Assembly (NCBI GenBank): GCA_031177685.1
Contig: JAPSGI010000005.1
Coordinates: 124,001-188,000 of the forward strand
Direction: 5' to 3'
Source of the DNA: Solirubrobacteraceae bacterium
GTDB taxonomy: Bacteria > Actinomycetota > Thermoleophilia > Solirubrobacterales > Solirubrobacteraceae
DNA: 64,000 nucleotides
Part shown: positions 11,764 to 20,007 of the stretch, piece after piece
Numbering within the stretch: position 1 is the first letter of the stretch
Layout of the letters: every line of letters begins with the position of its first letter
The notes under the pieces: generated by a model
Database searches by the model: none
What the model saw: only the letters and a program-made list of their open reading frames with translations
Told to the model about the DNA's origin: nothing
Made by a program: the position numbers and the translations under genes

Positions 11764-12093
11764 ATGGATGTCGCCGCCACACTTCGTGAGGCCCGCCGCC
11801 GCGCCGGTCTGACACAGAACGCCCTCGCGGACCGCGCCGGCACGTCCCAGGCCACGATCTCCGCTTACGAGCGCGGCATCAAGCAGCCGTCACTCACCAC
11901 GTTCGAGCGCCTGCTCGCCGCGGCCGGCGCCCGGATCGCCGTGGAAGAGATGCCGGTGCCGGTCGTCGTGCCCACCGCGGCGCGCCTCGCGCGCTCCGGC
12001 CGCATTCTCGAGGACGTGATCGCCCTGGCCGAGGCGCTGCCGGTTCGTCACGACCCCGAGCTGCGCTTTCCCCGCCTCCCGGAAGCGGCGTGA
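11764..12093 (+). CDS. XRE-family HTH transcriptional regulator (antitoxin-like)
   Basis: This 109-residue protein has a clear Cro/C1-type helix-turn-helix at residues 5-58 (LREARRRAGLTQNALAD, then TSQATISAYERG). A C-terminal 50 residues rich in Ala, Pro and Glu may contact the partner or form a dimer. The ATG at 11764 follows the palindrome closely. Its stop overlaps the GTG of the nucleotidyltransferase gene by 4 nt, so the two are translated together. HTH plus nucleotidyltransferase pairs are a known toxin-antitoxin-like arrangement (AbiEi/AbiEii and MenT-type relatives). The assignment as antitoxin is inference from context; the HTH fold itself is well supported. Confidence 0.85.
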   Translation: MDVAATLREARRRAGLTQNALADRAGTSQATISAYERGIKQPSLTTFERLLAAAGARIAVEEMPVPVVVPTAARLARSGRILEDVIALAEALPVRHDPELRFPRLPEAA

Positions 12094-12635
12094 CGCTCGC
12101 CGACCGGGTCGTCGAGCTACACCGCGCCCTGGACCGCGCCGCGGTTTCGCACGCCTTCGGCGGTGCGATCGCTCTGGCCTACTGGACGCTCGAGCCTCGC
12201 GGCACCCGGGACATCGACGTCAACGTCTTCGTGCCGCCAGATGGGGCCGAGCACGCACTGGCCGGTCTGCCGGACGGGGTCGCGGTGCGGCGGGAGACGG
12301 TCGACGCCATTGCTCGCGAGGGCCAGGTCCGCCTGTGGTGGGACGACACGCCCGTGGACCTGTTCTTCGACTACGCCCCGGTGCACGGGGACGCCGCCCG
12401 CCACAGCCGGACGGTCCCGTTCGCCGGAACGGAGATCCCGATCCTCGGCCCCGTGGAGCTGGCCGTGTTCAAGGCCATGTTCGATCGCACACGCGACTGG
12501 GCGGATGTCGAGGCGATGGTCGCCGCCGAGACGCTCGACCTGGACGCCGTTCGCGATCAGCTGCGCACGATGGTCGCGGCTGACGATCCGCGCTTCGCGC
12601 GCCTGGACGAAGCCGCCCGCCGCGCCCGCGGCTAG
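12090..12635 (+). CDS. nucleotidyltransferase-fold protein, possible toxin of an HTH-NTase module
   Basis: This 181-residue protein has a nucleotidyltransferase-like core. GGAIALAYW (residues 24-32) corresponds to the GG/GS motif, and RGTRDIDVNVFV (37-48) supplies the paired acidic residues D-x-D expected to bind Mg-NTP. A third acidic position may be PVDLFFDY near residue 91. A helical C-terminal part with ELAVFKAMFDRTRDWADVEAM matches the extended motif of AbiEii/DUF6036-type enzymes, in which the K-x3-R-x-KD-x2-D pattern is usual. Such enzymes modify tRNA or other nucleotides. It is coupled to the XRE gene. Its 3' end overlaps the convergent exonuclease gene by 4 nt. Confidence 0.75.
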   Translation: MTLADRVVELHRALDRAAVSHAFGGAIALAYWTLEPRGTRDIDVNVFVPPDGAEHALAGLPDGVAVRRETVDAIAREGQVRLWWDDTPVDLFFDYAPVHGDAARHSRTVPFAGTEIPILGPVELAVFKAMFDRTRDWADVEAMVAAETLDLDAVRDQLRTMVAADDPRFARLDEAARRARG

Positions 12636-14299: not shown

Positions 14300-15955
14300 G
14301 TGACCCCGCGTCGCGCCTCCGACGTCTTCGTGGAGTGCCTGGAGGCCGAGGGCGTGAAGTACGTCTTCGGCATCCCCGGCGAGGAGACCCTGGACCTCAA
14401 CGAGTCGCTGGAGAGCTCGAGCATCCAGTTCGTCCCCGTGCGCCACGAGCAGGGCGGCGCCTACATGGCCGACGTCTACGGGCGGCTGACCCGCAGCGCC
14501 GGCGTGTGCCTGGGAACGCTGGGGCCCGGCGCCACCAATCTGGTGACCGGGATCGCCGACGCCTACCTCGACCATGCGCCGCTGGTCGCGCTGACCGGCC
14601 AGGGCGACCTGGAGCGCATGCACAAGGAGTCGCACCAGTACATCGACGTGATCTCGCTGATGCGCCCGATCGTCAAGTGGAACGCCCGCCTGAACACGCC
14701 GGCGATCATCCCCGAGGCGGTGCGCAAGGCCTTCAAGGTCGCCGAGTCCCAGAAGCCCGGCCCGACGCACCTGGAGCTGCCCGAGGACGTCATGGCGGCA
14801 CAGCTGGACGCGGCGCCGCTGCCCAACGGCTCGGGCTTCCGCCGACCCGAGCCCAGCGCCACCGAGGTCGAGCTGGCGGCGCGCATCGTGCGCGGGGCCG
14901 AGCACCCGATCGTGCTGGCGGGCAACGGCTGCGCGCGGGTGGGGGCCGCGGGCGCACTGCGCGAGTTCTCCCGCGTCACCGGGATCCCGGTGGCCGAGAC
15001 GTTCATGGGCAAGGGGCTGCTGGACTACCGCGACGAGCACTTCGTGGGCACGGTCGGCCTGCAGTCGCGCGACTACGCCCTCGCGGGGTTCGAGGACGCC
15101 GACGTCGTGGTGACGGTCGGCTTCGACCTGGTGGAGCACGCCCCGGTCAACTGGAACCCGGGACGCGACAAGCGGATCGTGTGCATCGACACCGCGCCGG
15201 TCGAGGTCGACGAGCACTTCGTCACCGAGATCGACCTGATCGGCGACATCGAGGTGGTCCTCTCGCTGCTCACCGAGGCGTGCGGGCCGGTGGTGGCGCC
15301 GGAGAACGGGGCGCAGCCCAGCCGCCTCAACGAGATCGTGCTGTCGCACTTCGAGGCGGGGCGCGAGGACGACGCGTTCCCGCTGACGCCGCCGCGTGCG
15401 CTGTGGGACGTCCGCCAGGCGCTGGGTCCCTGCGACATGCTGATCTCCGACGTGGGGCTGCACAAGCTGTGGATCGCGCGCATGTTCCCCGCCCACGAGC
15501 CCAACACGGTCCTGATCGCCAACGGCCTGGCGGGGATGGGGATCGCCCTGCCCAGCGCGATCGCGGCCAAGCTCGTCCATCCCGAGCGCAACGTCGTGAC
15601 GATCAACGGCGACGGCGGCTTTTTGATGAACCTGCAGGAGCTGGAGACGGCGCGGCGCCTGCGCACGCCGATCGTCAACGTGATCTGGGAGAACGCCCAG
15701 TTCGGCTCGATCGTGTGGAAGCAGGACAAGAAGTTCGGCCGCCACTTCGGAGTGGACTTCACGAACCCCGACTTCGTCAAGCTGGCCGACAGCTTCGGCT
15801 GCCCGGCCTGGCGCTGCGAGTCGGCCGACGACCTGCCGCGGCGCCTGCAACAGGCGCTGGCGCTCGACCTTCCCTCCCTGATCGTGGTCCCGATCGACTA
15901 CTCGATGGACGTGGCCATCTCCGACGAGCTGGGCCAGGAGACCGTCACGACGTAG
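14300..15955 (+). CDS. acetolactate synthase, AlsS-like catabolic type
   Basis: This 551-residue thiamine diphosphate-dependent enzyme is expected to condense two pyruvates to 2-acetolactate. The N-terminal PP domain has the catalytic Glu in VRHEQGGAYMADVYGRLT (near residue 51), the middle domain is Rossmann-like, and the C-terminal domain has the TDP/Mg motif GDGGFLMNLQELETA. The sequence IVPIDYSMDV near the end and the GVDFTNPDFVKLADSFG region resemble Bacillus AlsS rather than IlvB. No regulatory subunit gene follows, again suggesting the catabolic acetoin-forming type, but no acetolactate decarboxylase is in view. The start is a GTG at 14300. Confidence 0.85.
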   Translation: MTPRRASDVFVECLEAEGVKYVFGIPGEETLDLNESLESSSIQFVPVRHEQGGAYMADVYGRLTRSAGVCLGTLGPGATNLVTGIADAYLDHAPLVALTGQGDLERMHKESHQYIDVISLMRPIVKWNARLNTPAIIPEAVRKAFKVAESQKPGPTHLELPEDVMAAQLDAAPLPNGSGFRRPEPSATEVELAARIVRGAEHPIVLAGNGCARVGAAGALREFSRVTGIPVAETFMGKGLLDYRDEHFVGTVGLQSRDYALAGFEDADVVVTVGFDLVEHAPVNWNPGRDKRIVCIDTAPVEVDEHFVTEIDLIGDIEVVLSLLTEACGPVVAPENGAQPSRLNEIVLSHFEAGREDDAFPLTPPRALWDVRQALGPCDMLISDVGLHKLWIARMFPAHEPNTVLIANGLAGMGIALPSAIAAKLVHPERNVVTINGDGGFLMNLQELETARRLRTPIVNVIWENAQFGSIVWKQDKKFGRHFGVDFTNPDFVKLADSFGCPAWRCESADDLPRRLQQALALDLPSLIVVPIDYSMDVAISDELGQETVTT

Positions 15956-16304: not shown

Positions 16305-17774
16305 ATGGCCACGACGCAAAGCCGGGAAGCGCAGGTCGTAGACGCCGTCCCCAAGCAGCTGTTCGTGGGGGGCGAGTGGCGCGACGCCGCGGAGGGCGGG
16401 ACGCTGGGCGTCGAGGATCCGGCGACCGGCGAGACGCTGTGCGACGTGGCCGACGCGCAGGTCGGCGACGCGGTGGCGGCGCTGGACGCGGCGGTCGAGA
16501 CGCAGGCCGAGTGGGGTTCGCACGCGCCCCGCGAGCGCGGCGAGATCCTGCGGCGCGCCTTCGAGATGCTGAGCGCGCGCGCCGACGACCTGGCGCTGCT
16601 CATGACGCTGGAGATGGGCAAGCCGGTCGCCGAGTCCAAGGCCGAGATCACCTACGCCGCGGAGTTCCTGCGCTGGTTCTCCGAGGAGGCGGTGCGGATC
16701 GCCGGCCGCTACCAGGTCAACCAGACCGGGCAGGGGCGCGTGCTGACGATGAAGCAGCCGGTCGGCCCGTGCATCTTCATCACGCCGTGGAACTTCCCGA
16801 TGGCGATGGGCACGCGCAAGATCGCACCGGCCGTGGCCGCGGGCTGCACGATGGTGATCAAGCCGGCCAAGCAGACGCCGCTGTCGATGCTCGCGCTGGC
16901 GGGGATCCTGGAGGAGGCGGGCCTGCCGGGCGGAGTGCTCAACGTGATCACCGCGTCCTCCTCGGGGTCGGTGATGGAGCCGCTGATCCGCGACCCGCGC
17001 GCGCGCAAGCTGTCGTTCACGGGGTCCACCGAGGTGGGGCGCAAGCTGATGGAGCAGGCGTCCGAGCAGGTGCTGCGCGTGTCGATGGAGCTGGGCGGCA
17101 ACGCGCCGTTCTTGATCTTCGAGGACGCCGACCTGGACGCCGCGGTCCAGGGCGCGATGCTGGCCAAGATGCGCAACGTCGGCGAGGCGTGCACGGCGGC
17201 CAACCGCTTCCACGTCGCGTCCTCGGTGGCCGACGAGTTCGCCTCGCGCCTGGCCGAGCGGATGGGCGCGCTCAAGCTCGGCCGCGGCACCGACGACGGT
17301 GTCGAGGTGGGTCCCCTGATCGACGCCGACCAGCGCGCCAAGGTCGCCGAGCTGGTGGAGGACGCGGTGGGGAAGGGGGCGCGCACCGTGGTCGGCGGGA
17401 ACGCGCCGGACGGCAGCGGCTACTTCTACGAGCCGACCGTCCTGGCCGACGTCTCCGACGGGGCGCGCCTGCTCAAGGAGGAGATCTTCGGCCCCGTCGC
17501 TCCCGTGAAGGGCTTCTCCTCCGAGGAGGAGGCCATCCACTGGGCCAACGACACCGAGTACGGCCTCGTCGCCTACGTCTACACCCGCGACCTCGGCCGC
17601 GCCTTCCGCGTCGCCGAGGCGCTGGAGACCGGCATGGTCGGCCTCAACCAGGGAATCGTCTCCAACGGCGCCGCCCCCTTCGGCGGCGTCAAGCACTCCG
17701 GCTTCGGCCGCGAAGGCGGCCCCGAGGGGATCGAGGAGTACCTCGAGACGAAGTACGTGGCGATGAGCCTGTGA
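16305..17774 (+). CDS. gabD: succinate-semialdehyde dehydrogenase-like aldehyde dehydrogenase
   Basis: This 489-residue aldehyde dehydrogenase most resembles the NAD(P)-dependent succinate-semialdehyde dehydrogenase group. It has ITPWNFPMAM with the oxyanion Asn near residue 158, SMELGGNAPF with the general base Glu near 255, and VGEACTAANRF with the nucleophilic Cys near 289. The LEMGKPVAESKAEI segment near residue 105 is typical of GabD. The ATG at 16305 is chosen over an in-frame upstream ATG at 16245 because it gives the normal family N-terminus. It would feed GABA or tyrosine degradation products into the TCA cycle; no aminotransferase partner lies beside it. Confidence 0.85.
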   Translation: MATTQSREAQVVDAVPKQLFVGGEWRDAAEGGTLGVEDPATGETLCDVADAQVGDAVAALDAAVETQAEWGSHAPRERGEILRRAFEMLSARADDLALLMTLEMGKPVAESKAEITYAAEFLRWFSEEAVRIAGRYQVNQTGQGRVLTMKQPVGPCIFITPWNFPMAMGTRKIAPAVAAGCTMVIKPAKQTPLSMLALAGILEEAGLPGGVLNVITASSSGSVMEPLIRDPRARKLSFTGSTEVGRKLMEQASEQVLRVSMELGGNAPFLIFEDADLDAAVQGAMLAKMRNVGEACTAANRFHVASSVADEFASRLAERMGALKLGRGTDDGVEVGPLIDADQRAKVAELVEDAVGKGARTVVGGNAPDGSGYFYEPTVLADVSDGARLLKEEIFGPVAPVKGFSSEEEAIHWANDTEYGLVAYVYTRDLGRAFRVAEALETGMVGLNQGIVSNGAAPFGGVKHSGFGREGGPEGIEEYLETKYVAMSL

Positions 17775-17778
17775 GTCC

Positions 17779-20007
17779 TTGAGCCAGTCCGGCGCGACTT
17801 CCGACCTCTCGGCGGCCGAGCAGCTGCTACGGGAGGCACGCGTGACCGGCGAGGCGGTCGACCTGCGCGCCGGCGACCCCGAGGTCGACGCGCCCGAGCA
17901 CGCGGCCGAGTGGCCGGACGAGCGAACGGTCCGAGCAGAGGTGCTCCACGAGATGCTGGTCGCGCCGGCGCCGAGCGGGTCGCCGCCGCCGCGGCGGCTC
18001 GACCTGCGGGGGGCGCGGATCGCCGGGCAGCTCGACCTCTGCGACGCCCGCCTGGTGTGCGCGCTCGCGCTTGTGGACTGCCGGTTCGACCAGCCGCTCC
18101 TGCTGGTCAGCGCGCAGGCGGCCCGTATCCGCCTCTCCGGATCCCACGTCCCCGCCGTGCACGCCGCCGGCCTGCGCACGACCGGGGTCCTCGAGGCGGA
18201 TGACGGCTTTACCTGCCCGGGCGGGTTCCAGTTGACGAGCGCGGATATCGGCGGGGACGTGATGTGCGCGGGCGCCAGGCTGGGAAGCGAGGACGGCGCC
18301 GCGCTGATCGCGGACGCCGCCACCGTGTCCGGCCACGTTCGGCTCGGGCCTGAGTTCGAGGCCCGGGGCACGACCAACCTCGTCGGCGCCCGGATCCGCG
18401 GCCAGCTCAACTGCACCGGCGGCTCGTTCGCCAATCCCGGCGGACTGGCGCTGGTGGCGGACGACGCCGTGGTCGAGGGAGCGGCGTTCTTGGACGACGC
18501 TAGCTTCGAGGGCGAGCTGCGACTACAGGGCGCCGAGATCCGCGGTACGCTCGGGCTCACCGGGATCAGGCTCGACAATCCCGACGGGACCGCGCTGCTG
18601 GCCGGGGCGCTTACCGTGGGCCGCAACCTTGTGATGTCGGAAGGGCGCGTCACTGGCGAAATGCGGATCCTGAACGCGCGCGTCGGCGGTCAGTTCGTGT
18701 GCCGCGGCGCCGTGTTGCGCAAATCCTCCACCCCCGCCTTCGCCGCCGATGGGATCCGTGTCGACAGCGACTGCATGTTCTCCGGCGGGTTCGAGGTCGA
18801 GGGCGGCGCCGTACTTTCCGGGGCCACGGTCGGCGGCCAGCTCGTCTGCCGCCAGGGCACATTCAGGGACGCGGAAGCGCCGGCGCTGGTCCTGGACGGC
18901 GCGACAGTCGGCCAGGATCTCATCCTGGGGCCAGACCTGGTTAGCGACGGCGAAACGCGGCTGATCGGGGCCAGCGTCGGCAGGCAGCTTCGTTTCGACG
19001 GCACGTTCTCAAACCCCGGAGACGATGCGCTCAGCGCCGATGGGGTGGAGGCGCGCGGCGGCCTTTTCAGCGGGCCGGGGCTGCGCGTCGAAGGGCAGCT
19101 CCGGCTGCACGTTGCGCGTATCCCGGGGTCGCTGCTGCTCGAGCACGGCGAGCTGCACAACCCCGGTGGCAGCTGCCTGACCGCGGACGGGATGGTGGTC
19201 GCCGCGCACGCGCGGTTCGGCTCGCACTTGAGCACTAGCGGGACGATGAGCCTGCGCGCGGTTGAGGTTGGGGCGCAGCTCGTGTTCGACGAGTGCGCCC
19301 TGAGCGCGCCCAGCGTCGCGGTCGACTTGGAGCGGCTCGTGGTCAAGGGGCCGCTGTTGATGTGGCCGCGGTCGCTCGAGGGCGGGCTGGACCTCACCCA
19401 CACCACGGCGGCCGTGTACTCGGACCAGCTGCAGATGTGGCCGGCACGGCTGGCCATCGAGGGGTTTCTCTACGACGCCATCCAGTCCAAGCCGCCGGTC
19501 TCCACCGCCCAGCGGCTGAGCTGGGTGGCTTCGCACGCCGGCGGTTACTCGCCCCAGCCCTACGAGCAGCTCGCTGCCACACTGCGTAACGTCGGCTCTG
19601 AGGACGAGGCGCGCGACGTGCTGATCGCCAAGCAGCGCGCGCGCCGGCGGCAGCTCGGGTGGCCGGCCCGGGTGTGGGACTGGCTGCTCGACGTCACTGT
19701 GGCGTACGGGTACCGGACGTGGCGAGCTCTCGCCTTCCTGGCCTTCCTACTCGTAGTCGGCGGCGTCGTCATGGACCGGGCCCATCCTGAGCACGTCGTC
19801 CCCACCAAGCCGGCATCGCAGATGCCGGACTTCGAGCCGTTGATCTACGCCGCCGACGCGCTGATCCCGGTGGTGAACCTGCACCAGCGCGACCTGTGGG
19901 CGGCCGAGGGGTTCGCGGTGTGGGTGGTGGCGGCGCTGGTCGTCGCCGGGTGGATGCTGACCACGATCGTGGTCGCGGCGCTCACGGGCCTGCTGCGCCG
20001 CGAGTAG
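17779..20007 (+). CDS. repeat-rich (beta-solenoid-like) protein with C-terminal membrane anchor
   Basis: This 742-residue protein starts at a TTG 4 bp after the gabD stop. Residues ~60-560 are an array of about a dozen degenerate units with the flavour L-x-GA-x-I-x-GQL-x-C-x-G, then NPGG-x-AL-x-ADG, each adding small hydrophobic residues at regular spacing, as in right-handed beta-solenoids. A helical segment (YSPQPYEQLAATLRNVG and ARDVLIAKQRARRR, about 580-625) leads into membrane helices at ~648-665 and ~711-738, separated by a loop with LIPVVNL. It resembles Streptomyces proteins often labelled membrane-associated oxidoreductase, but no cofactor site is visible. The solenoid is probably cytoplasmic given the basic stretch before the first helix. 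Function unknown. Confidence 0.75.
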   Translation: MSQSGATSDLSAAEQLLREARVTGEAVDLRAGDPEVDAPEHAAEWPDERTVRAEVLHEMLVAPAPSGSPPPRRLDLRGARIAGQLDLCDARLVCALALVDCRFDQPLLLVSAQAARIRLSGSHVPAVHAAGLRTTGVLEADDGFTCPGGFQLTSADIGGDVMCAGARLGSEDGAALIADAATVSGHVRLGPEFEARGTTNLVGARIRGQLNCTGGSFANPGGLALVADDAVVEGAAFLDDASFEGELRLQGAEIRGTLGLTGIRLDNPDGTALLAGALTVGRNLVMSEGRVTGEMRILNARVGGQFVCRGAVLRKSSTPAFAADGIRVDSDCMFSGGFEVEGGAVLSGATVGGQLVCRQGTFRDAEAPALVLDGATVGQDLILGPDLVSDGETRLIGASVGRQLRFDGTFSNPGDDALSADGVEARGGLFSGPGLRVEGQLRLHVARIPGSLLLEHGELHNPGGSCLTADGMVVAAHARFGSHLSTSGTMSLRAVEVGAQLVFDECALSAPSVAVDLERLVVKGPLLMWPRSLEGGLDLTHTTAAVYSDQLQMWPARLAIEGFLYDAIQSKPPVSTAQRLSWVASHAGGYSPQPYEQLAATLRNVGSEDEARDVLIAKQRARRRQLGWPARVWDWLLDVTVAYGYRTWRALAFLAFLLVVGGVVMDRAHPEHVVPTKPASQMPDFEPLIYAADALIPVVNLHQRDLWAAEGFAVWVVAALVVAGWMLTTIVVAALTGLLRRE

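Follow-up and report, generated by a model that had tools for sequence, protein, structure and literature searches.

Which function should be assigned to the 742-residue protein encoded at 17779-20007 on the forward strand of the window, that is, the whole 64,000-nucleotide stretch of DNA analysed here? An earlier note, made from the sequence alone, had read it as a long solenoid held by a two-helix membrane anchor, had mentioned an oxidoreductase label on similar Streptomyces proteins, and had proposed as roles a scaffold, an antifreeze-like DNA mimic or a channel regulator.

The gene, its neighbours and the oxidoreductase label

ORF analysis gave an intact frame of 742 codons (17779-20007, +), closed by a TAG stop at 20005-20007. 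The frame is open from 17767, and the TTG at 17779 is the sole in-frame start codon before residue 22. Homologues match across the full length, the full-length relatives with 28-38% identity, and by this comparison the gene is real, with the extent that the earlier note had given to it. Its product joins a beta-solenoid to a predicted pore domain. The genome holds a single copy.

The stop codon of an aldehyde dehydrogenase gene (16305-17774, +) ends 4 bases ahead of the TTG, which makes co-transcription of the two genes likely. Farther upstream, a thiamine-pyrophosphate enzyme is encoded on the same strand (14300-15955, +), and a fumarase gene on the opposite strand faces the gene under study, whose neighbours in the window are metabolic genes. 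A scan for promoters and terminators found nothing exceeding chance. Five kb upstream lies an HTH_3 regulator overlapping an AbiEii-like nucleotidyltransferase (11764-12635, +), a pair with a toxin-antitoxin look; the AbiEii-like match has an E-value of 4e-4, slightly under the cut-off.

Matches to the protein were found in 13 of 396 genomes of the phylum. Eleven of these 13 belong to one genus, probably Streptomyces to judge from the named matches. In the class, 4 of 299 genomes matched, so that close to the window the family is patchily distributed. More remote relatives are present in rhizobia and cyanobacteria, the sampling outside the phylum consisting of plasmid records. In the tree, a modestly supported branching puts the 742-residue protein immediately outside the actinobacterial group. 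Prophage or viral origin was rejected: phage records had no match, and the BFVD matches were generic solenoids.

Streptomyces genomes carry one to three copies each, at ordinary loci. Neighbourhoods in other genomes, a check that the earlier note had suggested, revealed no recurring neighbour at about 80 actinobacterial loci. The commonest Pfam family there was GNAT (6 of 146 neighbours), and the largest neighbour cluster covered 9 of 80 loci, so no conserved operon was seen. A Rhizobium homologue (L033) adjoins genes for Mrp-type cation/proton antiporter subunits, and a Shinella homologue (L156) adjoins an NhaC family gene; the antiporter neighbours of this branch are a possible hint to ion homeostasis.

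The name "membrane-associated oxidoreductase" is indeed borne by Streptomyces relatives. In two genomes, a Streptomyces paralogue lies about 80-130 bp after a gnd-like gene, where a zwf-pgi-gnd cluster ends (L184:2048-4466 and L186:1981-4523; gene names except zwf were assigned from sequences), and a third genome has it within 8-9 kb of zwf. In S. lividans, a gene labelled oxidoreductase sits in the same pentose-phosphate cluster (PMC6302529). The name was probably derived from these neighbours of the paralogue. Together with the aldehyde dehydrogenase 4 bp ahead of the gene in the window, such positions would suit a protein that works with carbon or redox metabolism. We consider this very improbable: neither Pfam nor NCBIfam gave a cofactor domain, the AF2 model contains no nucleotide-binding fold, and most loci are without such metabolic neighbours. 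Oxidoreductase identity was rejected, as no nucleotide or flavin cofactor fold was found.

The solenoid and its link to the membrane

The AlphaFold2 (AF2) model of the full protein, built with an alignment of 43 sequences, had a mean pLDDT of 94. It starts with a family-conserved N-terminal helical cap (about residues 10-72; 17806-17994, +; model helices 12-23, 39-44 and 53-61), the family consensus of which is LxxxERxLWDAFPxG...RTVRAEV. A pentapeptide-repeat-like beta-solenoid follows, from residue 73 to about residue 570 (17995-19488, +). Autocorrelation also detects this region, with z = 8.2 at lag 49 and z = 8.8 at lag 97, the 99th percentile of the shuffle maximum being 3.9. The long beta-solenoid of the earlier note is thus upheld by the model, which has no cofactor fold, and by a repeat signal far stronger than in shuffled sequences. 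Instead of "about twelve" units, however, there are seven regular units of 48-49 residues after an irregular N-terminal block. Among the motifs listed there, the LxGAxIxGQL type recurs at eight sites (residues 76, 201, 249, 297, 346, 395, 443 and 492); in the solenoid, NPGG-like motifs occur four times and ADG twice.

Pentapeptide_3 stays sub-threshold in the 742-residue protein (21.3 bits, versus a curated cut-off of 27); 38 of 43 homologues match it at E<=1, with a best E-value of 1.1e-12. The EfsQnr structure 2w7z matched the solenoid with a VIA Z of 14.1. A DNA mimic of the MfpA/Qnr type, which relies on an acidic solenoid, is weakened as a candidate, because strong acidity is not family-wide: among 43 homologues the net charge of the N-terminal part ranges from -26, in the 742-residue protein, to +5, with a median of -8.

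Across the alignment, 286 to 572 residues precede the helical module; the C-terminal module is constant in the family and the length of the solenoid highly variable. A relative from the same order has a 1305-codon open frame (L119:5754-9668, -), with a very long solenoid and the same C-terminal pore module.

Alignment and model both delimit a helical hairpin after the solenoid (residues 592-623; 19552-19647, +), with the consensus PQPYEQLAxxxRxxGxxxxARxVLxAKQRxRR and the invariant residues Y595, E596, L598, G606, A611 and R620. It corresponds to the helical YEQLA/AKQRARRR segment of the earlier note, which the model reproduces. The next helix (residues 628-644; 19660-19710, +), defined in the same way, ends at the invariant G644, with the invariant R646 just beyond, and is likely interfacial. 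Since positive residues precede TM1 and follow TM2, and since the protein has no N-terminal signal sequence, the solenoid is probably on the cytoplasmic side.

A predicted pore-loop domain

Folded alone, the C-terminus (residues 586-742) reached a pLDDT of 92. This model and the full-length one agree on the hairpin and on helix 628-644. In both of them, TM1 (residues 647-668; 19717-19782, +) is followed by a short re-entrant helix of pore type (residues 687-695, PLIYAADAL; 19837-19863, +), which contains the invariant Asp693 and superposes on cation-channel pore domains. Next comes a loop at the filter position (residues 696-704, IPVVNLHQR; 19864-19890, +; register approximate), extended over residues 696-702 and containing the invariant Pro697, and then TM2 (residues 712-741; 19912-20001, +), with the invariant G724, W725 and L727. 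Both membrane helices of the earlier note are recovered, but its anchor becomes a predicted TM1-P-TM2 pore fold, the re-entrant helix and the extended stretch having been missed. The segment LIPVVNL does lie between the membrane helices, as it stated, but is not a plain linker, since it is placed at the pore helix and selectivity filter of channels.

The 50 VIA-align matches listed for the C-terminus were tetrameric cation channels, but for one titled "a transmembrane protein". Among these listed matches, well-fitting entries superposed at 2.0-2.9 A over 75-93 residues, as for NaK-NavSulP (Z 9.5, 2.0 A over 75 residues) and KcsA (Z 9.5, 2.4 A over 83 residues). NaK had the top Z, 10.5, with a large rmsd, and Kir, GORK and SthK were also present. 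Foldseek against the PDB retrieved mainly K+ channels, including many KcsA chains (probability 0.87-0.99, TM-score of about 0.6-0.7 of target, E 0.3-1), and gave no E-value under 0.3. PDB entry 9ma5_A, released in March 2026 under the title "CryoEM structure of a transmembrane protein", gave a Z of 9.0 with the pore domain.

At the sequence level, no convincing link to solved structures was obtained. None of the 43 members matched Pfam Ion_trans_2 at E<=1, and hhalign against true Ion_trans_2 sequences was weak (probability 5%, E 0.007); 1 of 100 locally shuffled controls scored equally high, and slightly higher scores came from rotated versions of the alignment itself. The two models and the structural matches to cation channels together predict that the C-terminus folds as a pore-loop cation-channel domain. 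A passive two-helix anchor was rejected as the main reading, given that the structural matches are almost exclusively channels, that a re-entrant helix is present and that the filter segment is conserved.

The family consensus of that segment, over 43 sequences, is YxLDLLxP[IV]x[GDN][LF]GQ[RE]. It is the second most conserved region, after helices 586-627 and above TM1 and TM2, with a mean top-residue frequency of 0.71, versus 0.74 for these helices and 0.52 for the solenoid. D693, P697, G724 and W725 are invariant in 43 of 43 sequences. In a profile alignment, residues 698-703 stand opposite T-V-G-Y-G-D of K+ channels; this register is approximate, and an ungapped count back from the TM2 glycine differs from it by two. 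The K+ selectivity filter T-x-G-[YF]-G is absent from the 742-residue protein (PVVNLHQR) and from the family consensus. The usual glycine of the family is His702 in this protein (VVNLHQ), and a relative from the cyanobacterium Acaryochloris also has a histidine (DFHQQ). By signature, the protein is not a K+ channel, because its filter position reads VVNLHQ, with His for the usual Gly and without TVGYG.

The explanation that we favour, with moderate confidence, is that the protein is the subunit of a gated membrane channel, in which a pore-loop domain is combined with solenoid gating. The C-terminal 100 residues would form a 2TM/P pore-loop domain with the fold of tetrameric cation channels, four subunits would surround one pore, and the conserved Asp-Pro-[LF]-G-Q segment would lie at the pore helix and filter. 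The solenoid, probably cytoplasmic, would be coupled to the pore via the conserved hairpin and the pre-TM1 helix, and by binding a partner or ligand it could open or close the pore. If the pore conducts ions, it would be expected to be non-selective or to have a selectivity other than K+, because the filter is not a potassium filter. Several features favour such a channel. A passive anchor would not need the invariant D693, P697, G724 and W725; a solenoid that varies while the C-terminal module stays constant is what a regulatory domain attached to an unchanging core should show; and the lack of a recurring neighbour fits a self-contained protein. Of the three earlier ideas, the channel regulator came closest, although the protein appears to carry a pore domain of its own.

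The pore fold might instead have been kept in a non-conducting pseudo-channel, a multimeric membrane hub on which the solenoids scaffold partner proteins. Proteins typically interact through surfaces such as those of solenoids, no ligand domain is known here, and the filter is non-canonical, with the family glycine lost in the 742-residue protein. We nevertheless regard a dead pore as unlikely: at the filter position, residues are conserved more strictly than in the membrane helices, which would be odd in such a pore, the Asp and the Pro are invariant throughout the 43 sequences, and the histidine variant recurs in the cyanobacterial relative.

Immunity leads and known systems

A more specific form of the channel explanation came from the full-length model, whose top PDB match was HalA (9nyi; Foldseek probability 0.99, E 0.012). 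HalA, of the Hailong anti-phage system, is reported to act as an ion channel that poly-dA adducts of HalB block (PMC13275509). In addition, the neighbours of divergent homologues are a caspase and a C1 peptidase in S. meliloti, a trypsin-like/endonuclease fusion in Mesorhizobium, and Trypco1 and a caspase-nSTAND1 gene in Acaryochloris; the described bacterial conflict systems include trypsin-like and caspase peptidases together with Trypco domains (PMC7159879). In a counter-invader system (anti-phage or cell-death), the protein might therefore act at the membrane as the effector, its pore being released upon infection by a protease or a nucleic-acid signal and depolarising the cell. This is doubtful, since HalA superposes poorly (rmsd 15.5 A, TM-score 0.16/0.32), the neighbours in the window are metabolic, the one to three Streptomyces copies occupy ordinary loci, and no defence model was matched by more than two of the 146 neighbours at the roughly 80 actinobacterial loci. 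No HalB nucleotidyltransferase is adjacent in the window, where the flanks are the thiamine-pyrophosphate enzyme, the aldehyde dehydrogenase and the fumarase, and the nearest nucleotidyltransferase (AbiEii-like) is 5 kb off. The peptidase and Trypco1 neighbours and the HalA match are leads only to a role in immunity, because three loci are concerned and nothing similar is near the gene studied here.

The Acaryochloris homologue (L152:5055-7341) is annotated as two overlapping ORFs, likely through a frameshift. Downstream of it are an IS element, a second Trypco1 and the caspase-nSTAND1 gene.

If the channel explanation is true, ion channels with a filter of a kind not yet described, and with a modular sensor of unusual length, are at present annotated as "membrane-associated oxidoreductase" or "hypothetical" in Streptomyces, other actinobacteria, rhizobia and cyanobacteria. 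A testable function would then be available for a family that has none, possibly as a new class of immune or stress channels. We give only a low probability to its full extension, according to which a widespread, misnamed family in bacteria consists of pore-loop channels gated by a solenoid, with a new filter type and a HalA-related design, whose pore opens when the solenoid reads a protease or nucleic-acid signal.

Four known groups can be compared with the protein. The "membrane-associated oxidoreductase" of Streptomyces belongs to the same protein family, under a name that no cofactor fold supports. Pentapeptide-repeat proteins (Pfam Pentapeptide_3; EfsQnr) share the beta-solenoid and the GAxIxGxL pattern, but the 742-residue protein has a repeat of 48-49 residues and a membrane pore domain joined on, and its family is not consistently acidic. 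HalA, the first-ranking structural match of the whole model, is reported as an ion channel under nucleic-acid control (PMC13275509); the comparison is one of structure, with a weak E-value and a poor superposition, and in contrast to the HalA system no HalB-like gene lies beside the gene. With the pore domains of tetrameric cation channels (NaK, KcsA, KirBac; Ion_trans_2), the protein shares the predicted succession of TM1, re-entrant helix, filter-position loop and TM2, a similarity that rests on the predicted fold. Unlike NaK, KcsA and KirBac, the family lacks TVGYG and a Pfam match, has an invariant Asp and Pro instead, and carries a beta-solenoid where gating domains usually stand.
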